Source: a virus
IMG/VR virus record: IMGVR_UViG_3300037107_000123
Location: 1-25,142 of that record
Length of the DNA: 25,142 nucleotides
Direction: 5' to 3' (one strand)
Of the stretch, positions 7,189 through 23,831 are shown piece by piece. Within the stretch, counting starts at the first letter, position 1; every line of letters starts with the position of its first letter. A model generated the notes under the pieces. The model searched no databases. It saw only the letters and a program-made list of their open reading frames with translations, and was not told the origin of the DNA. Position numbers and translations under genes: made by a program.

Positions 7189-7485
7189 TCAACAAATTCG
7201 CCATCTTCCATTTTCTATAAATCCATGATGCCCACACCTCCTACACAATAAAGAAGGCGCTATGGTAAACGGATCTATACTAACCAAATCCCAATGATCT
7301 TCCCATTGACGATCCTGTCCTTTGATTGGAATATAATCTGGTACCCTTAATCCATTAATACAATTGTGCCAGTAATCTATTCCCCATAAATAATCATCAT
7401 TGTATAAGAAACGAATGGATACATCATTTCCTATATCTATTATTTCACTTTCCCTGTGTTCCATTACCCAACCCCTGTGTTCCAT
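7189..7485 (-). CDS. Small CxxC protein of unknown function
   Basis: 98 residues. The first ATG (7485) overlaps the stop of the tube gene as TAATG, so the two are translationally coupled. A second in-frame ATG at 7464 lies in the duplicated copy of a 21-bp tandem repeat and has a GGGG ribosome site, so the true N-terminus may be seven residues shorter. The protein is rich in Trp, Asp and Ile. It has a central 'YLWGIDYWHNCINGLR' segment, and a C-terminal CRRCGHHGFIENGRW ending in Cys98. That arrangement could bind one zinc ion through Cys81, Cys84, His86/87 and Cys98. I have an impression of similar short proteins in other phages and bacteria but cannot name the family. It sits between tube and chaperone genes but is not a known tail component. 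Confidence 0.7.
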   Translation of the reverse strand: MEHRGWVMEHRESEIIDIGNDVSIRFLYNDDYLWGIDYWHNCINGLRVPDYIPIKGQDRQWEDHWDLVSIDPFTIAPSLLCRRCGHHGFIENGRWRIC

Positions 7486-8141: not shown

Positions 8142-8894
8142 TTATGCTGCTATAGATAATGTTGTTTTATGCCTGGTTCTTTTAACACCATCAATCAAAT
8201 TTTCTTTAGAAGATAACGGCCTCAAATTTTCTAAAGCCCAACACTTTTGAAAATTTGGGTGTTCCATTGATTCATATGGCAAATCAGATTGTGGAATAAT
8301 ATGATCTATCTGCCATGTCCAAGTAGACGAATCACTGTCATTCCATGTTTTATTAGTATATTTACCATAATTATTCCAATTCATCCATGGCTCAAATTTA
8401 GATTCAAGATATTCTTTTAATTCTTCAACCGTATATTTAAGATATTTTAAAACAGAAGATCCATTTTTAGATTTATCAAGATTATGTAAAGCCGATCGTA
8501 CACTCCTGGATACATTAGAACGTATTTTAGATAAATGATTATTTTTCCTACTTTCCCAACTTGCACTTTTTTTAAAACGTTTTAGGCTGGCTATCTTTTC
8601 ACAATCTTTACAGTAACTCTCATAATAAATTATATTATTCACACCTTTATTTTTATTCTCACGCCCTCTAAAACAATCAATTAGCTTATCTTGGTCACAC
8701 TTTTTACAAATTTTATGAGTAGGTATTTCTTTTATCCTGGCTCCTCGAAAAATTGATGCGTCTATTCCAAGAATTTTATATACATAATAAACCCTTTGTA
8801 ATTTAATTCCTAGATGATCTGATATATTTTGTGCCGTTCGCTTTCCATCGAATAGTTTACTAACGGCGTCTAATTCTTCTTGTAAAACCTTCAT
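8142..8894 (-). CDS. HNH endonuclease, probable free-standing homing endonuclease
   Basis: 250 residues. Residues 1-50 are helical and look like a helix-turn-helix (KRTAQNISDHLGIKLQRVYY). A zinc ribbon follows with CKKC (63-66) and CKDC (95-98). The C-terminal nuclease has WQIDHIIPQSDL (Asp197-His198), CWALENLRPL (Asn223) and KENLIDG (Asn232). This is the usual HNH order with the metal-binding Asp-His and the later Asn residues present, so the enzyme looks intact. It lies between the sheath and tube genes, 15 nt after the sheath stop. Free-standing HNH genes of this type are selfish elements that cut uninfected alleles near their insertion site. The ribosome site is weak. A TGATATAT box overlaps the sheath stop (8905-8912). 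It has no obvious role in the virion. Confidence 0.88.
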   Translation of the reverse strand: MKVLQEELDAVSKLFDGKRTAQNISDHLGIKLQRVYYVYKILGIDASIFRGARIKEIPTHKICKKCDQDKLIDCFRGRENKNKGVNNIIYYESYCKDCEKIASLKRFKKSASWESRKNNHLSKIRSNVSRSVRSALHNLDKSKNGSSVLKYLKYTVEELKEYLESKFEPWMNWNNYGKYTNKTWNDSDSSTWTWQIDHIIPQSDLPYESMEHPNFQKCWALENLRPLSSKENLIDGVKRTRHKTTLSIAA

Positions 8895-11469: not shown

Positions 11470-12279
11470 TTATAATAAGGCCTCTATCCTATCTGAAAGG
11501 CATATAGAGTCACTAATTGCAAAATTTGGGTCGGTAATTGTATCAGATCCTATTACCTTAAAATCTATACATAAATTAATATATTCAACTATATTTTTAA
11601 TGGGAATCAGGCGTCTCCACTCGGTTCTAATATCCACACTAACCGTAGCTTTATATAGTTTATTTTTTTGCCTATCTTCGCCCTCAGTAACCCCGCCAAC
11701 AGTAGGTTGTCCTGACTTTACTAAAACGCCGGCTTTTCTTAAGCTCTCAAATCTAATATCTACAAAAAGCAACATTATGATACTTACAAGATTATCCCTA
11801 TCCAGAATATCCCTGCTCTGGACCTCAATCGTAACTGTCCCCTCCCAAGCACCAGATAAATCTATATGTCTAGGCGTGAAATATTCCTTGGTATTTCCGT
11901 ACCCATCAATAACTAATTGCTTTTCCCATTGGATAACTTCTTTATTTCTATTGAAGGAAATTGGTACAGATCTAGCAGAGACCATCCTCACCAAAAGCGC
12001 AGGATAGAAAATCGCATCAAATCTAAATGCTTCGCCAATAAAAATGCGAGTTGTTAGATCGTCTTCAAACCCGGCACCTAATGGGAGGTTTGTGTGATCG
12101 GGTATTTTAGGGTAACCCCAAGAATCACAAGTAAAATGATAGAAAGAATCTTTAGCAAACTCCTCACGCAACATCCCAATAATAAGCTCTTTAGGATAAG
12201 ATAATAAACTATTCTGTGCCACATGATGAATGGCATAAAGATCAGAGCGAAATAATGAACCGGTACCTGGTGTAGTCAC
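11470..12279 (-). CDS. Probable neck/tail-completion (tail terminator-like) structural protein
   Basis: 269 residues starting at GTG 12279; an in-frame TAG lies four codons upstream, so no longer start is possible. No clear ribosome site precedes it. The protein looks like mixed alpha/beta. There is an N-terminal helix (SLLSYPKELIIGMLREEF), a middle with paired strands ending in 'GAWEGTVTIEVQSRDILDRD', and a later strand (YKATVSVDIRTEWRRLIP). The position directly before the sheath gene is where contractile phages often encode the tail terminator or head-tail connector protein that caps the tube and sheath. That role is inferred from position only. I do not recognise the family. The gap to the upstream tnpB is 46 nt and includes the possible end of the TnpB element, so the original upstream promoter may have been displaced. 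Confidence 0.6.
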   Translation of the reverse strand: MTTPGTGSLFRSDLYAIHHVAQNSLLSYPKELIIGMLREEFAKDSFYHFTCDSWGYPKIPDHTNLPLGAGFEDDLTTRIFIGEAFRFDAIFYPALLVRMVSARSVPISFNRNKEVIQWEKQLVIDGYGNTKEYFTPRHIDLSGAWEGTVTIEVQSRDILDRDNLVSIIMLLFVDIRFESLRKAGVLVKSGQPTVGGVTEGEDRQKNKLYKATVSVDIRTEWRRLIPIKNIVEYINLCIDFKVIGSDTITDPNFAISDSICLSDRIEALL

Positions 12280-12318: not shown

Positions 12319-12339
12319 CCACAAGCTAAAGCATTGTAG
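12319..12339 (-). ncRNA. Possible 3' hairpin of the TnpB guide RNA (omega RNA) / right end of the element
   Basis: On the minus strand the last codons and stop of tnpB lie in a hairpin: CTACAA pairs with TTGTGG (one G-T pair), with an inner GC-TTTA-GC. A tnpB stop codon inside a terminal hairpin is a hallmark of IS200/IS605 right ends, where the omega-RNA scaffold finishes just past the hairpin and the guide continues into flanking DNA. Here the flank begins around GGGCGTTGTTAGTC (minus strand, just below 12313). The exact scaffold/guide border cannot be set by eye. Confidence 0.5.
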
Positions 12340-13537
12340 ATTCTTGAAAAAGATTATTCTCTTTCAATACACCAGATAATTCCAGTGGCGGTATCAGTGC
12401 CGCAAGATGATAACTCTCCCATCGTCTCAATATATTAATGGCAGAATTTAGATCACGATCGATGATTATTCCTTCAGCTAATTGTACTATCCTATCCTTC
12501 AACTCAACCTTCTTACTAAACTTCTTTCCTGTAAGACAATTAAGTTGAGTAGTGTGTCGTTCATCTATTTCAACAACATTAGTTTTACCTTGACACTTGT
12601 AGGTTAGAAATTGCCTAAATGTATCAATGGAAGATTGTGAAAATGATTTACGAACACCTTTATATGACTTTTCTTTTGACATTAGTTCTTTAACTGAGAG
12701 ATCACCTAATACTATCGTTTGATAGTTCATATTCGATAATTTCTTACTCTGAATATGTAGAGTTTGTTTTACTTGTGCGTTTTTCTTATTATATAGCTTG
12801 GTTCGCACCTTGGATAAGTGTTTATGCTGATTGCTATCTTTTGTTTTTATTGATAATTGTTTAGAAACTTTAGCTATTTGCTTGCCGAAATACTTAGCAA
12901 TTTTCTTGGCTTTGTTATTAAGTATAATAACCTTTCCATCGTTATCGATACCAGTAGCCAATGATTTCAGACCAAGATCAACAGCTAAAACTTTATTAGA
13001 CTTATTTTCTTGGTATTCATCTTTGTATTCTATAATAAGATCACATAACCATTTGTTGTTGATTAATTTTATTCTTACTTCTTTTATTTTTAGTTTTGTT
13101 ATATCATCTTTTGATTTGAATAAAATTGGATTATCTATTTTTGAAAATTTAATCTTTTCTTTTTTAAATTTCCAACCTGACTGATTAAAAACAATACTAA
13201 CAATTTTGTTTTCATCTACTATACCTGGGGGTCTTGCTTTCCTGTCACCATTTTTTAGATGTCTAAAGAAAGAGCGATATGAACTTCCAATTTGTTTAGC
13301 AACAGCTTGTGCTGCCCTTGAATTATAATTTTTTAATTCTGGATATTCTTTCTTTATTTTTGGTAATAATTTAATCAAATCAAAATCACTCATACCCTTT
13401 TTGGTTGATTGGTACGTTTGCTCTCTAATAGATACTAATTTGTTCCAGATTATATTACGCAAACACATAAAGTTATACAGCTGCTTTTCTTGTGAAGCAT
13501 CTGGAAATAATCTAATAGTATGCGTTTTATTATTCAT
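12326..13537 (-). CDS. tnpB: IS200/IS605-family TnpB RNA-guided nuclease (OrfB), stand-alone
   Basis: 403 residues, ATG 13537. The N-terminus (KTHTIRLFPDASQEKQL, then CLRNIIWNKLVSIREQ) is the standard OrfB start. The RuvC-I aspartate is in LAVDLGLKSLATG (Asp187). The RuvC-II position reads IVLGDLSVKEL, with Gly278 where many relatives have the catalytic Glu. Nearby VVEIDERHTTQ supplies Glu323 and Glu326, which could substitute. RuvC-III is IDRDLNSAINIL (Asp360/Asp362). The zinc finger that normally lies between RuvC-II and -III keeps one Cys (Cys334); the other three are replaced by a Lys/Glu-rich loop. No TnpA lies next to it, so it is either moved in trans or domesticated. It sits inside a phage tail cluster between a fibre gene and the neck/sheath genes. 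TnpB proteins cut DNA using a guide RNA from their own 3' end. Length is normal, so it is probably not a fragment. Confidence 0.92.
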   Translation of the reverse strand: MNNKTHTIRLFPDASQEKQLYNFMCLRNIIWNKLVSIREQTYQSTKKGMSDFDLIKLLPKIKKEYPELKNYNSRAAQAVAKQIGSSYRSFFRHLKNGDRKARPPGIVDENKIVSIVFNQSGWKFKKEKIKFSKIDNPILFKSKDDITKLKIKEVRIKLINNKWLCDLIIEYKDEYQENKSNKVLAVDLGLKSLATGIDNDGKVIILNNKAKKIAKYFGKQIAKVSKQLSIKTKDSNQHKHLSKVRTKLYNKKNAQVKQTLHIQSKKLSNMNYQTIVLGDLSVKELMSKEKSYKGVRKSFSQSSIDTFRQFLTYKCQGKTNVVEIDERHTTQLNCLTGKKFSKKVELKDRIVQLAEGIIIDRDLNSAINILRRWESYHLAALIPPLELSGVLKENNLFQESTML

Positions 13538-13626: not shown

Positions 13627-13655
13627 TTGACTAATTTAATGCTTTGTGTTATTCT
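13627..13655 (+). promoter_or_regulatory. Sigma70-like promoter of the plus-strand Cys-rich gene
   Basis: TTGACT (13627-13632), exactly 17 nt, then TATTCT (13650-13655). Transcription would begin near 13662, leaving a short leader that contains GGAGA ahead of ATG 13682. This is the best consensus-like promoter in the window and implies expression independent of the minus-strand late operon. Confidence 0.6.
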
Positions 13656-13681
13656 GATTAAGAAATTGGAGAAATAATCAA

Positions 13682-14365
13682 ATGAACAAGCACATATCAT
13701 CAATATTTTGCGTAATATCAATAGGTTGCGGTAGCACTTCAACGACCACAGTGGAATGCACAAGCCCAGAATGCTTTGGAAATGATGCAGGGGCCGGAGC
13801 AAGTTCAACTGGTGGAGGTTCAAGTACTACTGTCACAAATGGTACAGGAGGAAATAATTCTACTGGAAGTTCGGCCGGTACAGGGAATTCAACATCATCT
13901 ACAGGGGGCAATTCAACAATCAGCACATGCGTAGCGAAGACTTGTGATCAGATTGCGGCTGCGGCACAAGTCACGGGTTTTTCTAATGCTAGTGCTTGTG
14001 GATCTGCTTCTGATGGTTGTGGTGGAAGTATAGATTGTGGTAATTGCTCAACTGATCCACCCAGTTCTTCAAATACTGGTTGTGGTCAATCAAGTTGGAG
14101 CACATCAACACAATTTCCAGTCGTACCAATACCAACAGCTAATATTTGTGGAACGCGCTGTTTGTCATATGGATCTAATAGTTGTCAAACCCAATTAGGA
14201 CAGGAGTGGATTAATTCATGGAACACATCTAATCCTACAAAACAAATTGCCACCAATGCTGTTTCATATTCATGCCCATCATCACCATCATTAGTACATC
14301 CAATAGGCCTTACTGGGTGTGTATCAATTCCATCAGTAAATTGGTGGTGTTGCAATCCATCTTAA
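13682..14365 (+). CDS. Cys-rich, Gly/Ser/Thr-rich exported (lipoprotein-like) cargo protein
   Basis: 227 residues, ATG 13682 with a good GGAG ribosome site and its own promoter. The N-terminus MNKHISSIFCVISIGCGS looks like a short lipoprotein signal, with Cys16 as possible lipidated residue. The position-3 residue is Ser and the hydrophobic core is short, so the lipobox is imperfect. Residues 37-80 form a Gly/Ser/Thr/Asn-rich linker. The first Cys module (83-122) reads CVAKTC...ACGxxSDGCGGxIDCGxC. From memory this signature is typical of secreted and lipoproteins of Myxococcota. A second Cys-rich part (134-224) ends NWWCCNPS. There are 18 Cys in total, suggesting disulfide-bonded domains outside the cytoplasm. 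It runs opposite to the flanking tail genes and is not a known virion component. Possible roles: surface change of the infected cell, exclusion of other phages, or an adhesin. No direct evidence distinguishes them. Confidence 0.8.
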   Translation: MNKHISSIFCVISIGCGSTSTTTVECTSPECFGNDAGAGASSTGGGSSTTVTNGTGGNNSTGSSAGTGNSTSSTGGNSTISTCVAKTCDQIAAAAQVTGFSNASACGSASDGCGGSIDCGNCSTDPPSSSNTGCGQSSWSTSTQFPVVPIPTANICGTRCLSYGSNSCQTQLGQEWINSWNTSNPTKQIATNAVSYSCPSSPSLVHPIGLTGCVSIPSVNWWCCNPS

Positions 14366-14432: not shown

Positions 14433-17400
14433 TTAGTACATATATACAACCGAAAATGGTGGTTGCCCTGTATCATTAATTACCATTTTTGGAACGCCTA
14501 TTGCTAATGGTTGTGGCCAATTACCATATACAGCAACACTAGGATCTCCACCCGGTTCTCCTTGTCTCATTTTTAGAACCATGTTTTTTACTGGTCCTGG
14601 ATTGGTGGGTCTTACATTAGTTTGCAGAACATTAGAATAATATTTAAGAGTAAAATTTCCACCAGGAGTTGCATCGACACTGGCAACAACCTGCCCATCT
14701 AATTCAAGGGAAAGTTGCGGAAACGTTGTTGATGGGTTGCTATTATTATTATTAAAAATAGACCATGTTGTATTTAAAGATACTGTTATTTGGAGTGATA
14801 ATAAGAAAGCTTGATCTGGTAAAATAGAAGATAAAGGGATCACTAATCCAACAGTTCCATCATTATCTACAGTATCCCACCATTCCCAAACCACCCTTTC
14901 ATTACGATCAAAATATACCTTAGCTAACCCTCTATTCGGACTATATAAACCAGGATTTGATAATAGTGCATATTCCTGACAAAACAATAATCGCTCATTG
15001 TTTTCATAAGGATTAACAATAGAATTGGTATTTGGTGATGCACTCATATGTAAAAGAGGGATTGCGGAACTCAAGCTGGGCATAAGCTTAACAACTTGAT
15101 TTACGTTATGAGAAGCAAACGCGCACCCATCGATTCCGTTCATATTCGATGATGTGCTAATTCCAAAACTATCATAACCGTCACCAGCACCAGTCCACCA
15201 AGTTCCTAAATTAAAATGACTTAGTGTATTTCCGTGTATTGATGAAGCTGCTCCGGCATGAATAAACCCATTAATAATTGTTGCATCTGCTTTATTAATT
15301 GTATTTCCAGTAATAGTTGATTTGAGTTGACTACTATTCCATATACCCCAACCATTCGTCGCTATATTATTTACAATATTTCCGGTTATAGTACCAGCAC
15401 CATCAATATGAATACCCTTTATATATCCTACATTAAGCCCATCAATTGTATTGCCCGTACATACAACAGAAGTATCAGTATCAATAGAATTACTCACTAT
15501 AGTTAATCCTGATGTATATAAATCTGGAATAATAAGGTTTACAATATTATTAAAAACTGATTGGTTTCTAATTTTATTATCAGAAACAATAGTTTTGAAG
15601 CTTAGAGACCCTGGTGTTGATTCTGCCTTAATATAATATGCACTATTGTCAATAATTGTGCTATCAACCGGATATTTATGAACATTAAGCATCTTGTAGC
15701 TATATGTTTTAGATAGCGGATGCATAGTTGCTGTTACGCCAGTAATAATTAATTGTGTTGTATTTTCACTTATTGTAATACCAGCTGTTAAATTGCCGGC
15801 TACGATAGTGCCTATAAGCCCAAATCTATTTTCATCAATTATAAAATTGTCAACAGCAACAGCACTAGCTGATAAATAAGTTCCAAGCACATCTGGATTG
15901 GCCCTACCAGTTACAATAATACCTTGTTGTGCATTTATTTTTGTTCTAGATACCAAAATATCTGAACAAACCAAAGATGATAATGGTATGGTGTTTGTAT
16001 TAACAAATGCGTAAGCTAACGCGTTTCCGGCATTTGTATCTGAAAATTTGTTATTAATAAAATTACCATTACTAAAGTTTCCTGACAAAGCATACACGGC
16101 AAAGAATGGGGGTCTTTGTGCTGCATCAGAATAAAAATAAGTATCCTCAATACCAAAATTATCTATATTTACAGTTGGAGAATCAATTACTATACCACCC
16201 CAATTTATAATTCCATTAACCGCACTTCCATTAGTATTAAAAATATCACTAGCATCCGGGGTAAAAACAGATCCACCATAAAAATTAGTATCTTTATATG
16301 GATAATAGTAAACCTTTCCACCAGCAATCTTCCAATTTCCGCTCTTTAATGATAATCCCTTTACGCTATTTATTTCGTATATTCCACCTTTTAGTGTTAC
16401 AAAATTATTAAACCCTAATTGCAATTCACTATTTATCTTTACATATTTTACATTTACTTCATTAACACCATATTCATTAACCCAGTTCATCAAAGCATCT
16501 GTAGTAATAAAACTTACATTATAACCATCCATACCATAAGCCCAAGTAAAAGAGCCTAAGTCTTGATTAATTATATGTTTACGAGCATCGGTTACTTCTA
16601 ATAATTGATAAGGTGTTTGTCCAGAAGCAATTTGAACTTTAACTCTAGAAATAATTGTAAGATCTTTTCTTTTATCCACAATTTCTTTAAATGACAATGA
16701 TTCTACAAAATAACCAGATATACTTTCAAAGAATTGAAATCCTATATCCTTAACAACAGCTTTTAGTTGCCCATTTTCGGTTACGCAAATAAAGAACTCA
16801 ACAACTGAGCTAGACAATGATTTTATTTGTGGAATCTTAACACCAATGGAATCAACGGCAACAAAACCACCATTTACTAGAGCCATACCGCCAGTAAATT
16901 TTAATATTGTATTTGTACCATCAGCGTGTTCGTAATCAAAGCCTCTTACCACACCATTTGTATGTAGATAACGCTCACCAGATTGAATAAAGTTTATTGC
17001 AGAATCAGTAAAGTTTTCTTCTGATAATGTTCCAAATTCCCTTAGATCTGTTATAGCCCTAAAGTTTACGCCATCGTGACTTACACCTGCTATTATAAAA
17101 AACTCATCATCTCCGATAAATGTATTAAATAATTCAATTGGCGCAAAACCAGTTGAAGACATTGGTGTTCCTGGATTAGAAAGATCTTCGCGGAACTCAA
17201 TATCAATAAAATTAACAAAAGAACTATCAAAAAACCTAATTGGATGATTCTTTTTACCACGAACAACTGGACCAACATTTAATCCGCTCAAATCACCTAT
17301 ATATCCATCAAACTCACCAGTTACAGAGTTATAATTAACAATATTTAAATAAATATAAAATCGTAAATCGCTGCTTCTATAACCTTTTAATTTTTGAGAA

Positions 17401-19715
17401 ACATTTCTAATATTCCATCCTGATACTGCCAAATCTCTAACAGCCCCAAATGTTGCCTTAGACATCCTGGCTCGTTCAACAGAAATAGTTCTACCAAGAT
17501 TATCTAAAAATACCTCATGATAATTTTGATATTGTGAAGGATCGTCTGAAGAAACCATATTTTTTAAATTAAAAGATACAGAATCTTTAGAGAAATATAT
17601 TTTAACTTGAGTAGATAGTGGTAATGGAGCTTGGTTGGAATTTCCTGTTCCATGTATAGCATTTAGAACAGTGATATTAGTGTTATCATTTCCTACACAA
17701 GAAAACGAAAGATCTGAAATAATAAATCTTCCATATCCACTAATATCTGAATTATTATTATCTATTGGCTGAACAACAATGGTTTTTCCAGGATCTAGAC
17801 CTTCGGTATTAAGATCTAATGGAATAGAATAGGTAACAAACGAAGTTCCGTCACTGATACTAGGTGTAATGTTTGTTATTGTAGCAATCCAATAACCATC
17901 ACCTTCTGTAAATCTTGACTTATTTAAAAAATCCCTTTTGGTACCGTTAACTAAATAATTACGATCACTAACTGGAGGAATTATTAGTGTTGAAAAATTA
18001 GCCGCAGCAATAGGGGCAGAATAACCATTTGGAGCAATGGCAGTAGCAAATCCAGCACGCCCTCCACCAAGACCTAAAGCATCAAATAAATCAGTAGCAT
18101 CACCAATTACATTGTTTACATATGGTCCTGCTATTAAAGATATTCCGCTAACCTGACCAGCAATAATGGAAAATGATGCTCCATTATATGAATCAGCTAA
18201 CATAATACCAAACTCACCTTTTTGATTAAACGCAATAAATCTATAATTATAACCGGCTTTTCTAAATTGTTTATTGGTTTGTTCTACAATATAATCAATA
18301 CTGTAGCGCCCTGGTGTTGCTCCTAAATTACCACTCACATCAATAGCGTGCAAATCAACAAAAGAGCTAACATTACCATTTTGATACAACCTAAGATATA
18401 ATAGATAGTGATTAGCATCTATTTGGTTGGGATCAAAACCAATACCAACAGCCACTGCTCCCTTAGGATTTCCAACAATTATAGTATCAAAAACAGGAGA
18501 GTTTTGGGAAATACTTGGAACAGCTCCTGCGGCAGCACACACCCCCCATGTGCTTCTATCAAAATTAGATTGATCAATTCTAGCATATCCATCATACCCA
18601 TCCATACCATCAGCATTGAATAGATTATTTGAACTGATTCTAATTGTCCATTCAGATCCTGGTACAAACCTAATAGAAATTATTGGAAATATAGCCTCAA
18701 TACCATTTCCATAATTAACACGAACAATATCACCAACCTTAACATTGGTAAACTGAGAATCAAATGAAAAACCAGTGTTGTTAATAGGAAAGAATTTTAT
18801 AACATCATCACCGTTATTAATGTTATCATTTGGTCCTAACTGATTTGGCTCTGATAAATAGGCCTGTATTTTTGTAACAGGAACAATATTTACAGTATAT
18901 CCATCATTATTTAAATCTTGAATACGAGCTGTTCTTGGAATACCATTAGAATTTAATGTTGCTCTATCTACACCATTAGAAAGCGCATCTTGATTATCAA
19001 AAAAATCAATAACCTGCTGTACATTTTGGATATCGGCTGGAAGTTGCACAAAGCCAGTTGTATCTACCGTAATTGCCGTAGCTGGATGAGCTAATGTTGT
19101 AGTGTTTTCATGACCAACCAATTCATTATTTATCTGAAGAAGCGCCTCTGCTACCTGAGTTGCACTACGCTGGTTTCCATTAATATCTTTCAAACCAACC
19201 CACACATATGAATCACGAAGATCGTGTGGAACAGCATTAATATCTATTTGACTAGCCACATGCCTTGCTGGTGTAATATGATCAGTTAATAATTGTGCAC
19301 CAGAAATATGAAGTAATAAATCTGAACTATCATCAACAGCAAGATTTTCAACATTATTTAGCTGTGCCTGAATATTAATTATTTGAGTAGACAGATCAGA
19401 AGTGCTATGGTCTAGTGTAAGTTTTGATTCCTTAATTCCTGCATTATCAGCGACTTGATTATCTGTTATTGGAAGTGTTACTAATCCAAGATTCTGCAAT
19501 GCCGCAGCTACAGGCTCACCATCTGGGCCAATAAGAATAGAAATACGATCATTTATATTAGATTTTGACCCTTGTGGATTAATACCAAGCGTTTTTTCAA
19601 TAGCAAAAATAGCATCTCTAAGCTGATTAATTACAGATGTACCAAGCTCTGAAAGATTGTCGTCAATTCTATTTATTGAACGATCATCATCTATATTTGC
19701 AGGATAATTTGTCAT
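14433..19715 (-). CDS. Giant tail fibre / tailspike with right-handed beta-helix
   Basis: 1760 residues, ATG 19715 with GAAGG ribosome site, 3 nt after the 78-residue gene. Residues 1-125 are helical with a coiled-coil tendency (SELGTSVINQLRDAIFAIEK; LSTQIINIQAQLNNVENL), as expected for a trimeric virion-attached shaft. Residues 145-158 and 201-239 carry short modules of the form H-P-A-x-x-I-T-V ... N-V-Q-x-x-I also seen in the 519-residue fibre. A long mixed beta region (about 250-1050) follows. Roughly residues 1080-1530 are a parallel beta-helix made of Asn/Thr/Ile-rich turns, with recurring 'ITGNTI', 'IVSNSI', 'ISENTT'. The C-terminal ~170 residues look like a beta-sandwich receptor-binding or trimerisation head. 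Such proteins bind, and sometimes cleave, surface polysaccharide. No lyase or hydrolase active site can be assigned by eye. Located in the virion cluster upstream of the sheath. Confidence 0.85.
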   Translation of the reverse strand: MTNYPANIDDDRSINRIDDNLSELGTSVINQLRDAIFAIEKTLGINPQGSKSNINDRISILIGPDGEPVAAALQNLGLVTLPITDNQVADNAGIKESKLTLDHSTSDLSTQIINIQAQLNNVENLAVDDSSDLLLHISGAQLLTDHITPARHVASQIDINAVPHDLRDSYVWVGLKDINGNQRSATQVAEALLQINNELVGHENTTTLAHPATAITVDTTGFVQLPADIQNVQQVIDFFDNQDALSNGVDRATLNSNGIPRTARIQDLNNDGYTVNIVPVTKIQAYLSEPNQLGPNDNINNGDDVIKFFPINNTGFSFDSQFTNVKVGDIVRVNYGNGIEAIFPIISIRFVPGSEWTIRISSNNLFNADGMDGYDGYARIDQSNFDRSTWGVCAAAGAVPSISQNSPVFDTIIVGNPKGAVAVGIGFDPNQIDANHYLLYLRLYQNGNVSSFVDLHAIDVSGNLGATPGRYSIDYIVEQTNKQFRKAGYNYRFIAFNQKGEFGIMLADSYNGASFSIIAGQVSGISLIAGPYVNNVIGDATDLFDALGLGGGRAGFATAIAPNGYSAPIAAANFSTLIIPPVSDRNYLVNGTKRDFLNKSRFTEGDGYWIATITNITPSISDGTSFVTYSIPLDLNTEGLDPGKTIVVQPIDNNNSDISGYGRFIISDLSFSCVGNDNTNITVLNAIHGTGNSNQAPLPLSTQVKIYFSKDSVSFNLKNMVSSDDPSQYQNYHEVFLDNLGRTISVERARMSKATFGAVRDLAVSGWNIRNVSQKLKGYRSSDLRFYIYLNIVNYNSVTGEFDGYIGDLSGLNVGPVVRGKKNHPIRFFDSSFVNFIDIEFREDLSNPGTPMSSTGFAPIELFNTFIGDDEFFIIAGVSHDGVNFRAITDLREFGTLSEENFTDSAINFIQSGERYLHTNGVVRGFDYEHADGTNTILKFTGGMALVNGGFVAVDSIGVKIPQIKSLSSSVVEFFICVTENGQLKAVVKDIGFQFFESISGYFVESLSFKEIVDKRKDLTIISRVKVQIASGQTPYQLLEVTDARKHIINQDLGSFTWAYGMDGYNVSFITTDALMNWVNEYGVNEVNVKYVKINSELQLGFNNFVTLKGGIYEINSVKGLSLKSGNWKIAGGKVYYYPYKDTNFYGGSVFTPDASDIFNTNGSAVNGIINWGGIVIDSPTVNIDNFGIEDTYFYSDAAQRPPFFAVYALSGNFSNGNFINNKFSDTNAGNALAYAFVNTNTIPLSSLVCSDILVSRTKINAQQGIIVTGRANPDVLGTYLSASAVAVDNFIIDENRFGLIGTIVAGNLTAGITISENTTQLIITGVTATMHPLSKTYSYKMLNVHKYPVDSTIIDNSAYYIKAESTPGSLSFKTIVSDNKIRNQSVFNNIVNLIIPDLYTSGLTIVSNSIDTDTSVVCTGNTIDGLNVGYIKGIHIDGAGTITGNIVNNIATNGWGIWNSSQLKSTITGNTINKADATIINGFIHAGAASSIHGNTLSHFNLGTWWTGAGDGYDSFGISTSSNMNGIDGCAFASHNVNQVVKLMPSLSSAIPLLHMSASPNTNSIVNPYENNERLLFCQEYALLSNPGLYSPNRGLAKVYFDRNERVVWEWWDTVDNDGTVGLVIPLSSILPDQAFLLSLQITVSLNTTWSIFNNNNSNPSTTFPQLSLELDGQVVASVDATPGGNFTLKYYSNVLQTNVRPTNPGPVKNMVLKMRQGEPGGDPSVAVYGNWPQPLAIGVPKMVINDTGQPPFSVVYMY

Positions 19716-19718
19716 TTA

Positions 19719-19955
19719 TTATTTACCTTCAGTTTTTACTTCGCCTTCAAGCTTTGGTTTGTTTTGTGGTTCAAACCCTTGTAGAATAGCCGCTATTTTA
19801 GCAAAATCAAAACCAAGAGCCGCACAAATAGCCACACCTTTCTTATAATTAAAAACCTTAAACAAACCAGATAAAATAGTTGCAAACCCACCAAGAGAAC
19901 CAACTATTGCAATTGCATATTGTATATATTCAGGAAGATTAGTTATAAAATCCAT
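19719..19955 (-). CDS. Small membrane protein, holin-like
   Basis: 78 residues, ATG 19955 with AAGGTGA ribosome site. Residues 12-36 (AIAIVGSLGGFATILSGLF part) form one clear hydrophobic segment. A second, weaker one spans 40-59 (GVAICAALGFDFAKIAAIL). The C-terminus is short, polar and charged (KPKLEGEVKTEGK). Size, one or two membrane spans and a charged tail are consistent with a holin, which would set lysis timing by permeabilising the inner membrane. No endolysin is in the window. A virion-associated or moron membrane protein is equally possible. It lies between two fibre genes with gaps of 10 and 3 nt, so it is part of the same transcript. Confidence 0.7.
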   Translation of the reverse strand: MDFITNLPEYIQYAIAIVGSLGGFATILSGLFKVFNYKKGVAICAALGFDFAKIAAILQGFEPQNKPKLEGEVKTEGK

Positions 19956-19965
19956 ATTTCACCTT

Positions 19966-21525
19966 TTACCTTATCGGTCTCCAAACCTGTAAATCAAGCC
20001 AATCACTATTAGATATGTATAAATTACTAACAGTCACACCACCAATAATTCCAACATACATATGAATCTCAACAGTACAACCAGCAGGAAAATCATTACT
20101 AACTACATAATACATCGGAAAAACTAATTCGTTTGCAATATTTCCAGTTATACCACCAGATAATAAAAGACCATTCAGGCCCTGATCGTATGTCTTTTTA
20201 ACGTTTCCATTTTCATAAATTACACAAGTTAAAAATAATTGAGATCCAGAACTTAAAAGCGCACGAAAATAAGCCCTTGAAATAAGTATATCTCCAGGTA
20301 GTAAAAATATTGTCTGCTTAACAATATTATTAGATGTATCTAAAAGATCTGTTGTTCCAGTTACAGTATTATAACTTATAAACTGACTATTACTAACCAC
20401 ACCACCAACTGGAGAGGTATAAGCTAATTGATAAGAATTTCCACTAACCTGTCCTATAAAAGAAACAGGGTTGTGCATAATAATAGAATTACCTTTAACA
20501 TTTACATTTCCAGTATTACTATTTAAAATTATATCTCCATCACCAGCAAAATTATGACTTATACCAGATACTAAAAATAAATTTCCAGCTATTCCACTTA
20601 AATTATTTTGTGATTGAATTGTCAAATCATTTGCTACACCACTTATATCTGCTTGGTATATTATTGGGTTTATCACATCTTCACTAAACTCAACAAAAAT
20701 AGAATCAACAACAACTTTTCCAGATCCAGTGAACAAATTTATATTACCAAATAAACCAAAATTTGTAGTAGACGACAAATTAATATTTCCAGATCCACTA
20801 AAAAGATTTATATTTCCATCATTATTTTGACCAAGACCAGAATCTGAAACTATATTTATATTTCCAGTACCTTGCCCATAACCAGAATATAGAAATAAAT
20901 CACCACCTGCATGGGATCCGCTGAAATTTGGCTGTGCCGTAATTGATAATGATTGAGATGGTGTATCAATAAAAACTGGCTCCTGGTATATTGATGGGTT
21001 TGGCATGTTCTGTAAAAAGAAAAACTTAGAACTTTGCAACGTTACAGAACCATCAAAAATATTATCTAAAGAATTATAACCAGATGATAAACACAAATCT
21101 CCTGCTGGCCCTGCTAAATTACCTTGTCCAGAAATTATTAATGATGGTTTTGTTGCTGAAACCACATTATTTGTTTGTTTCTGAGTTATATTATGAGTCT
21201 GACCATCGTCTGGAAATATCAAATCATTGAAATCATTAATTGTAATTCCGGAATTTTTTGTTAACTTGCCAGAATCCCCATCAAATCTTGGAATTGCATT
21301 GTCTGTCGATGATAATGGACCTAACACAGTATTATTGGCTACGATTTGTAAACTAGCTAAGGCATCTTGAACGTTTGATATAGATGGAAAACCGGCAACA
21401 GTTATATCAGACGCCGGATGAACCCAATCCCCACCAGTAACATGAGCCATGAAATCTTGCTTTGTTGTTGCAAGAAGCCCAGATTGTATAGGACGGCCTG
21501 AGCCAATATATCTAGTGATGACCAT
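19966..21525 (-). CDS. Tail fibre/adhesin protein with three internal repeats
   Basis: 519 residues, ATG 21525; AAGAG lies close to the ATG as a poor ribosome site. Residues 21-60 carry a module seen in many phage fibres (TTKQDFMAHVTGGDWVHP, then ITVAGF ... NVQDALASL), also present in the 1760-residue protein. Three ~40-residue repeats follow at about 127-167, 191-229 and 299-337, each of the form L-x-I-x-x-Q-x-N-L-S-G-x-A-G-x-L-x-L-x-S-G. Between the second and third are short strand repeats (GNINIVSDSG, GNINLFSGSG, GNINLFTGSG). The pattern suggests a repetitive beta-fold shaft that trimerises. The last ~150 residues look globular and beta-rich and may be the receptor-binding head. The bias to N, G, S and I agrees with an extracellular fibre. 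No enzyme motif seen. Confidence 0.8.
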   Translation of the reverse strand: MVITRYIGSGRPIQSGLLATTKQDFMAHVTGGDWVHPASDITVAGFPSISNVQDALASLQIVANNTVLGPLSSTDNAIPRFDGDSGKLTKNSGITINDFNDLIFPDDGQTHNITQKQTNNVVSATKPSLIISGQGNLAGPAGDLCLSSGYNSLDNIFDGSVTLQSSKFFFLQNMPNPSIYQEPVFIDTPSQSLSITAQPNFSGSHAGGDLFLYSGYGQGTGNINIVSDSGLGQNNDGNINLFSGSGNINLSSTTNFGLFGNINLFTGSGKVVVDSIFVEFSEDVINPIIYQADISGVANDLTIQSQNNLSGIAGNLFLVSGISHNFAGDGDIILNSNTGNVNVKGNSIIMHNPVSFIGQVSGNSYQLAYTSPVGGVVSNSQFISYNTVTGTTDLLDTSNNIVKQTIFLLPGDILISRAYFRALLSSGSQLFLTCVIYENGNVKKTYDQGLNGLLLSGGITGNIANELVFPMYYVVSNDFPAGCTVEIHMYVGIIGGVTVSNLYISNSDWLDLQVWRPIR

Positions 21526-21568
21526 GCTCTTATACAGAAATATTGAGCGTTTAGATTATTTTGGCTAT

Positions 21569-23527
21569 TCACGGAAGAATAATGATGTGAGTATGATTTA
21601 ATTCAGTAACAATTTTTCCAGAAACTATTGGATGACTGTGCCCTTGAGTAATACTTGTCAATTGGTTTATTTGGTTTAGTGATGTTGTCTTCTCACTTCG
21701 GATCACGCGATGAGCATGAAGAGGTATGCCACCAGGACCAGGAACACCACTAATTGATGTAAGAATCTCTGATGGAAACATGCTTGTATCCAAAAATGCA
21801 GGTACTTGACAAATTGGATCGGTTTTACGCACACGAATAGCCGTAAACTTCTGCGCCCCAGTTTCTTGAAGGAATGATCTGTTTCTTTCTACATTCAAAA
21901 TTTCATAACGCCATTCTTCTGTTCCATCCTGATTAAACCTTATTATAAAATCACCATCTTTTATTGATGGAATAACTAATGTCCAGCAATTAGGAATATA
22001 TGTGTTTTCAATACCAGCATCATCCCTCTTAAACTCTTCTCTAGTAGGCCCAAAACGAACTAAAATCTTACCATCACTTTCACGAGGATTATAAAATGGC
22101 TCATATCCTACAACCTGAGATGTTCCATAAGTATCTAATCCACGATAACTGGTGTTTTCACGCATAGAATCATAATGTTTAGATTGCTTTCCGCTCCATG
22201 TACGCTTAAACAACATTACTCTTTCACCAGTATTTTGAAGTAAATATTCCTCGCGCATGTTCATATGTTCTTGAATACTTAGTCCACGAATATTATTATC
22301 GCATTCATATCCATCAGAACAACCCCACTCCCCACCAAAATAAGTACCTACACATTTTCCTGATAGATAATCCGGCAAGAACGTTCTATCCCACCCAGTC
22401 TGATCATAAATAGGAAATCCAGCATTAGCAGCATCAACAACAGCCAAATTACCACCGCCCGAAATTATATCTACACGTTCTCTAAAACCATCTGTATTGG
22501 TTCTGGCATATTGTTCTGTAAACTTAATGGTTGTCATTCCAACTGCAGTATTAGATGCCTCCCAGCCCTTCCATATACTCACAAATATATTATCATATGT
22601 TCTGTATCCATCATATCCATTTGTGTTGTGTATTCTAGCCTCATATCCATAAAGACCACGAGACGCATTAAGTAAATAACCATCAACCAAATCAACACCA
22701 GAATAACCAATTAATTCAGCACCAATTATAACAATACCGCTTGGTGGAAAAAGAGAGGCATCATCTAATGGAATGTATGTCTGTTCTGCTGTAATATCAT
22801 TTTTTAATGCTGCTTCTGAGTACATTCTAAAACCAGATTCATTTCCAGGCAATTGATCAAATAATAATGTACCAGGCTCATGACCAGAACCCCTAACTGC
22901 AAAATAATAAACACTACCCGGCTTAAATAGATTGTGCACCTCTGCAGATAAGGTATTCTTAACTACAAACTTTACACCTTCAGAAAAAATATCGTATTGA
23001 TCAGTAGACCAATACAAATTATAAACCAAGTCCCAATTACTAGGCTTTAAATATTCTTTGTACCATTCTAAACTTATTGTATACCCATCTCCCAAACAAG
23101 TAACCGTTCTAAGACCATGAATAGATGCATCAAAAGAACGAAGAAATACAGGGGGCGTGCATGATATATTAGTAACAACAACCGGAACTGGAACTTGAGG
23201 ACCACCACTTGTTCTCTTGCTAACCGTATAGAAAGCAATTGAGTTGGTTGGTATAATTTCACCTGAACTGGTTATTAACGTTACATCTAACCAACTTGTA
23301 TCTCCAACTTCACTATTTACCGCAGAAGCCCAAAAAGATATAACATTATTATTAATACTAGATGAGTGTGCCCCGCCAGTTGTTTTATCTACAATTACAT
23401 TACCAGTAGAATTTAATGACCATGATACAATAGTAACAGCTGGGCCTTCGCTAGTAATGAGGGGATTACAGTCTAATTGCCACCAAGATTGTTCACCTGG
23501 TAATATTTGAAAGAAAAAATCATCCAT
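21569..23527 (-). CDS. Multidomain tail adhesin/fibre with C-terminal HxH motifs
   Basis: 652 residues, ATG 23527. Residues 1-110 look like an Ig-like beta-sandwich, and 115-215 a fibronectin-III-like domain ('WDLVYNLYWSTDQYDIF' ... 'GSVYYFAVRG'). Residues 220-340 have short strands and a 'GAELIGYSGVDLVDGYLL' type segment, common in phage tail-associated proteins. Around 390-425 is a Cys cluster (KCVGTYFGGEWGCSDGYEC). The C-terminal ~50 residues contain three HxH motifs, HAH (604-606), HSH (630-632) and HTH (645-647), ending 'NHTHIIILP'. HxH pairs bind iron or zinc in trimeric tips such as T4 gp37, so a metal-stabilised tip is plausible. Gene order and a short overlap with the upstream 68-residue gene place it at the head of the fibre operon. 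Domain borders are estimates. Confidence 0.78.
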   Translation of the reverse strand: MDDFFFQILPGEQSWWQLDCNPLITSEGPAVTIVSWSLNSTGNVIVDKTTGGAHSSSINNNVISFWASAVNSEVGDTSWLDVTLITSSGEIIPTNSIAFYTVSKRTSGGPQVPVPVVVTNISCTPPVFLRSFDASIHGLRTVTCLGDGYTISLEWYKEYLKPSNWDLVYNLYWSTDQYDIFSEGVKFVVKNTLSAEVHNLFKPGSVYYFAVRGSGHEPGTLLFDQLPGNESGFRMYSEAALKNDITAEQTYIPLDDASLFPPSGIVIIGAELIGYSGVDLVDGYLLNASRGLYGYEARIHNTNGYDGYRTYDNIFVSIWKGWEASNTAVGMTTIKFTEQYARTNTDGFRERVDIISGGGNLAVVDAANAGFPIYDQTGWDRTFLPDYLSGKCVGTYFGGEWGCSDGYECDNNIRGLSIQEHMNMREEYLLQNTGERVMLFKRTWSGKQSKHYDSMRENTSYRGLDTYGTSQVVGYEPFYNPRESDGKILVRFGPTREEFKRDDAGIENTYIPNCWTLVIPSIKDGDFIIRFNQDGTEEWRYEILNVERNRSFLQETGAQKFTAIRVRKTDPICQVPAFLDTSMFPSEILTSISGVPGPGGIPLHAHRVIRSEKTTSLNQINQLTSITQGHSHPIVSGKIVTELNHTHIIILP

Positions 23528-23811: not shown

Positions 23812-23831
23812 TATAAAATGCCAAAAATGTA

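Follow-up and report, generated by a model that had tools for sequence, protein, structure and literature searches.

Architecture of the locus

The stretch of DNA analysed here, called the window, is an entire virus record of 25,142 bp. The gene under study occupies positions 13682..14365 (+) and encodes a protein of 227 aa from an ATG start, with a Shine-Dalgarno sequence, GGAG, recognised from the sequence at 13668..13671 (+), 10 nt upstream of the ATG. In a first-pass annotation, this open reading frame (ORF) had been described as a Cys-rich secreted protein and as the only plus-strand gene among the tail genes. The ORF is real and carries the Cys-rich signature as claimed, and the rest of the tail cluster (1-23.5 kb) lies entirely on the minus strand; a second plus-strand ORF, glycosyltransferase-like, is found at 23818, beyond the tail genes. 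The remaining genes of the window are those of a contractile-tail phage, and include a tail sheath (phrog_2839), which is weakly related to the sheath of phage G, and tube-like and baseplate-like proteins. A small CxxC protein is encoded between the tube-like genes (7189-7485, -) and has a weak match to DUF6527 (E 2e-4, under the curated cut-off).

A predicted lipoprotein signal peptide with lipobox (ISIG-C16; 13682..13729, +), recognised by a lipobox rule, is followed by a Gly/Ser/Thr-rich linker (13769..13924, +), the best 40-aa window of which is 88% G/S/T/A. The linker leads into a host-type Cys-rich subdomain, CVAKTC...CGSASDGCGGSIDCGNC (13925..14047, +), delimited by motif scan and alignment; the order of the signature, a Gly/Ser/Thr-rich stretch and then CVAKTC...ACGSASDGCGGSIDCGNC, is as first described. 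A variable C-terminal module (14141..14362, +), with 7 invariant Cys among 14 sequences, ends in WCC, and the Cys-rich C-terminal end of the window protein reads NWWCCNPS. An AlphaFold model of the head had a mean pLDDT of 70, and in the AF2 model residues 1-40 of the head, the host-type subdomain, scored 63-91 by block; PDB and fold searches with the head returned no match.

Convergent with the lipoprotein gene lies a large tail fibre gene of 1760 aa (14433..19715, -), assigned by synteny, whose product has no match in Pfam. Its variable tip extends from about residue 1050 to the end (14436..16568, -), as delimited by identity profiles; a beta-sandwich model of it (mean pLDDT 66.5, moderate) shows weak matches to carbohydrate-binding modules (CBM) and to the lambda gpJ fibre. 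The gene is assumed here to encode the receptor-binding, host-recognition fibre. Structural proteins with repeated DGYDGY-like motifs are encoded across 14433-23527 (-), as they are in the related locus L153. On its other side the slot that holds the lipoprotein gene is bounded by a conserved tail gene (11470..12279, -), placed by synteny and alignment. Between the lipoprotein gene and this next tail gene, and divergent to the former, lies a gene for a TnpB-like protein (12326..13537, -; Pfam and PDB alignments), the fold of which was judged from the sequence match. Its RuvC-II Glu is replaced by Gly, the RuvC-I and RuvC-III Asp are kept and the zinc-ribbon Cys are mostly lost; the protein is probably nuclease-dead and is possibly a TldR-like repressor. 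A search for a guide RNA gave no Rfam match. An 18-nt inverted-repeat match linking the end of tnpB to the lipoprotein gene was judged to be chance, because similar pairs were listed alongside it.

A conserved slot beside the fibre gene

When the peptides of the lipoprotein itself were used as query, no relatives were found in viral contigs, phages or plasmids. The family was reached through its neighbours: queries with the sheath and with the 269-aa tail gene that borders the slot gave many loci, some from contigs of >300 kb, among which the tail gene order is conserved. In some loci, such as L002, the 269-aa gene directly follows the fibre gene with no slot gene between them; in other loci the gap between the two holds an opposite-strand gene for a lipoprotein whose Cys-rich head follows a Gly-rich linker. 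Among 154 phage loci, all 24 opposite-strand ORFs with a Gly/Ser/Thr/Ala linker lie in this fibre-adjacent slot, with duplicate records included. The distinct loci with a lipoprotein in the slot number 17, the window and L153 counted, on contigs of up to 459 kb, and in these 17 the distance from the fibre stop to the lipoprotein stop is -6 to +68 bp. Whole-record searches of records of 17-459 kb found exactly 1 copy in each record that has the lipoprotein. The gene had been proposed to be cargo carried in the tail cluster, a claim that fails on this fixed slot in 17 related loci and on its single copy in the records searched. Several relatives lack the gene, among them L002, L157, L018 and L019, and one exception to the position was seen in L231, where the copy of the 321-kb record L030/L006 sits away from the fibre gene. 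The L231 gene (1492-2109, +) starts with GTG and lies amid small ORFs, with no fibre gene within the 3.6 kb examined.

The head domain of the family has 10 invariant Cys and hypervariable loops, with a mean column identity of 28% (13 sequences); the figure of 7 invariant Cys given above is for the C-terminal module on its own (14 sequences). Pfam, NCBIfam and PHROGs held no fitting family; the best PHROGs match, at 9e-4, was to a function-less PHROG and was obtained with one family member only.

The export signal and the promoter were both assessed across these loci. The lack of an export signal had been named beforehand as evidence against the annotation; such a signal is present, residues 1-16 of the window protein (MNKHISSIFCVISIGC) forming a lipobox under a PROSITE-style rule. 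The same rule picked out 15 of 16 slot ORFs and 0 of 185 other ORFs of >=100 aa from the same loci (Fisher 1e-21). The slot gene is predicted to encode a lipoprotein with a type II signal peptide, which would be lipidated and displayed on the outer membrane. The gene had also been credited with its own promoter, and a sigma70-like promoter, TTGACT-17-TATTCT with an extended -10 TGT, lies at 13627..13655 (+), 27 bp upstream of the ATG. A generic promoter scan over the window region gave matches at chance level. When a space of <=120 bp upstream of the start was searched for the pattern TTGAC-N15..19-TANNNT, however, it was found at the matching place in 14 of 15 relatives, compared to 1 of 135 tail-strand genes and 0.87% of random 120-bp windows; the 15th relative, L007, falls outside the pattern and carries TTGACA-17-TATAAG. 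Because the motif is conserved in 14 of 15 relatives and rare in the background, the promoter is more than a chance match.

Other genes also enter the slot. An HNH endonuclease ORF lies between the lipoprotein gene and the 269-aa gene (g10 homologue) in L011, L020, L158, L159, L169 and L219, and these slot ORFs are homologous to 8142-8894 of the window. In L021 (7418-8997), the slot of a 336-kb relative also holds an HSP20 gene and a gene with a HAD domain (PF18143). The TnpB-like gene is absent from all other loci examined, the other 16 with the lipoprotein included, and is found in 1 of 17 members.

The Myxococcota-like subdomain and the host

The Cys-rich signature had been associated with Myxococcota, and this assignment stood for the first subdomain (CxPxTC...DGCGGxxxCGxC) and did not extend to the C-terminal module in the genomes searched. 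An unrestricted motif scan of 84,980 species genomes, in which row 1 of the query alignment was the window and three rows were composed to resemble Myxococcota-like repeats, returned 71 loci; by record title, these belong to 45 Myxococcota taxa, 20 'Deltaproteobacteria' metagenome-assembled genomes and 6 others. Matches scattered over many phyla, or mainly to fibre proteins, had been named as the outcome that would speak against the assignment, and no such pattern arose in the tally. Many of the 71 host loci also have a lipobox and a Gly-rich linker, often with several repeats. The C-terminal module was found in 0 of 237 Myxococcota genomes, which is a weak negative because, in leave-one-out tests, an HMM of the module recovered only 8 of its 14 members however far the threshold was relaxed, up to E 10, and 4 at E <= 1e-4.

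The G+C content is 35-46% in the phages and mostly 60-77% at the host-type loci. Among 379 Myxococcota genomes, no relatives of the sheath were found, and a search for spacer-like DNA matches gave none that was credible, the best being 86% over 44 bp, with no repeat array around the matches. The motif association holds, and a Myxococcota host is likely for these phages.

Exchange of the variable ends, proposed function and known counterparts

Two pairs of related phages revealed how the lipoprotein and the fibre vary. L167 and L168, from two records, are 99.6-99.9% identical across a 34.6-kb contig, with 98.2% in one 1.7-kb piece. The exception is one replaced block, 814 bp in one and 891 bp in the other, which consists of the fibre tip and the C-terminus of the lipoprotein. 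Its edges lie in the fibre gene about 200 codons from the end and in the lipoprotein gene just past ECGG, at the close of the first subdomain; the fibre tips are 42% and the C-modules 39% identical, whereas both N-terminal parts are about 100% identical. A second, small discrepancy of ~60-77 bp lies deeper in the fibre gene; at ~6819-6821 of L168, the reading frame of the fibre is broken by a ~77-bp deletion when compared with L167, which is either an assembly chimera or a true mutation. In the second pair, L161 and L219, both from metagenome 3300023202, the fibres are 92-100% identical to about residue 1000 and 22-56% past residue 1050, and lipoprotein identity is 70-95% as far as about residue 120 and mostly 5-30% beyond. 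This joint replacement in two pairs of phages indicates that the abutting 3' ends form one exchange unit. The window and L153 have both the tip type and the C-terminal module in common; L011 and L020, however, share the tip (47%) and not the C-module. Furthermore, across all pairs, tip and C-module similarity showed no correlation (rank correlation; Mantel rho -0.06 to 0.12, not significant), and a long-range matching of tip and lipoprotein types was dropped on these tests. Tip and C-module are thus a linked unit, short of a demonstrated strict pairing. Free-standing HNH ORFs recur both beside the exchanged cassette and at other places in the tail cluster; that nucleases beside the cassette might promote its exchange is offered as an idea only.

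Beyond the slot, strand, signal, promoter, variable disulfide-rich head and joint exchange demonstrated above, the function that we propose is that of a fibre-linked, receptor-masking (superinfection-exclusion) lipoprotein, similar in action to Llp and Cor and unrelated to them in sequence, a reading drawn by analogy to which we give about an even chance. The gene's own sigma70-like promoter suggests that it is transcribed by the host RNA polymerase, probably ahead of the tail genes. After export, the product would be held in the outer membrane of the infected cell by its lipid anchor, and the disulfide-rich head with its variable loops would project on the flexible Gly/Ser/Thr linker. Most likely the head binds the receptor of the fibre, or else the fibre tip, and sister phages would thereby be kept from adsorbing to the infected cell or to debris. 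Because the genes are arranged tail to tail, the fibre tip lies next to the C-terminal module, and a single recombination could replace the two as one block. It had been suggested earlier that the protein alters the infected cell surface, which is plausible, and it probably controls which phages attach to the infected cell. Counted against the exclusion reading are the lack of a tip/C-module correlation, the position of the L231 copy, the relatives without the gene, the lack of homology to Llp or Cor and the moderate quality of the tip model.

Some of these points would suit a surface lipoprotein that mimics the host for another purpose, such as myxobacterial recognition, lipoprotein exchange or prey interaction, its link to the fibre being merely physical. 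The Myxococcota-type first subdomain and linker, the absence of a deep correlation between tip and C-module and the distance of the L231 copy from a fibre are in keeping with such a mimic, but 17 loci preserve both the slot and the tail-to-tail arrangement, and the sole large replaced block of two near-identical contigs spans the ends of both genes, so that we consider it unlikely. Fibre chaperones are known to adjoin fibre genes and to be exchanged with tips. An example from an Alteromonas phage is mentioned in PMC10579305. A virion or assembly factor, acting as a tip accessory protein or a chaperone of fibre-tip folding, would likewise adjoin the fibre gene and be exchanged with its tip; it is nevertheless a doubtful explanation of a disulfide-rich, export-type protein with a lipobox, encoded on the opposite strand behind its own promoter, the gene for which is absent from many relatives that have this fibre backbone. 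A surface-switching module, in which the probably nuclease-dead TnpB-like protein and a guide RNA would silence a host surface gene and the host-like lipoprotein of the phage would replace its product, is very improbable. Slightly less probable again is a polymorphic toxin delivered by a lipoprotein: a constant leader and linker before a variable C-terminus fit this pattern, but what varies is a short disulfide scaffold that matched no toxin family convincingly, and the fibre gene stands where a constant immunity gene would be expected next to it. The accidental acquisition of a host gene by way of a TnpB element, suggested by the adjoining TnpB-like gene of the window and the host-like first subdomain, has almost nothing left in its favour, since the conserved slot is occupied in 16 other loci without TnpB and the C-terminal module is common to other phages.

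If the exclusion reading is right, giant phages swap the variable ends of a lipoprotein and of the receptor-binding fibre as one cassette, and attachment specificity and exclusion can shift together by one recombination. Receptor-masking lipoproteins would then be a feature not only of small coliphages but also of uncultured giant phages, and the family would make phages with a probable Myxococcota host recognisable by sequence. It would also mean that nature has provided near-identical phage pairs that differ almost only in the cassette, which makes the exclusion idea directly testable.

In T5, the llp gene is adjacent to and downstream of the gene for the receptor-binding protein pb5, and Llp blocks the receptor (PMC9586334); Llp is reported as early-expressed in that paper and in its reference list. 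The present phages are similar in that a phage lipoprotein gene directly adjoins a presumed receptor-binding protein gene, and its own promoter suggests separate expression. No homology to Llp or Cor was found, however, for the family in Pfam, NCBIfam and PHROGs or for the window protein in phage records, and unlike in T5 the head is larger, disulfide-rich, variable and carried on a long linker, the genes are convergent and exclusion is a proposed function. Loci of coliphage receptor-binding proteins (RBPs) travel with cognate superinfection exclusion proteins, and the Cor/RBP loci that lie downstream of gpJ in small siphophages, Drexlerviridae among them, have allelic variants that include them (PMC8594841). 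The present loci may resemble these; in contrast, they belong to contractile-tail phages of up to 459 kb, both 3' ends are exchanged as a block and the protein is unrelated. The Cys-rich lipoproteins of Myxococcota, with their CxPxTC...CGxxxDGCGGxxxCGxC repeats, share the lipobox, the Gly-rich linker and the subdomain at many of the loci found, but the host proteins are usually multi-repeat and the WCC C-terminal module of the phages was not found in them. The window also recalls the prophage TldR-FliCP modules (PMC13418256), in which a TnpB-like protein without a catalytic residue is encoded beside a phage-borne gene for a host-type surface protein; here, however, the TnpB-like gene accompanies 1 of 17 members, the surface protein is unrelated and the guide RNA and target are putative. 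If the surface-switching reading were true, it would parallel TldR-FliCP, with the difference that the module belongs to a giant phage and is tied to the specificity of the fibre. Altogether, the lipoprotein is most likely a new, sequence-unrelated form of fibre-linked exclusion lipoprotein.
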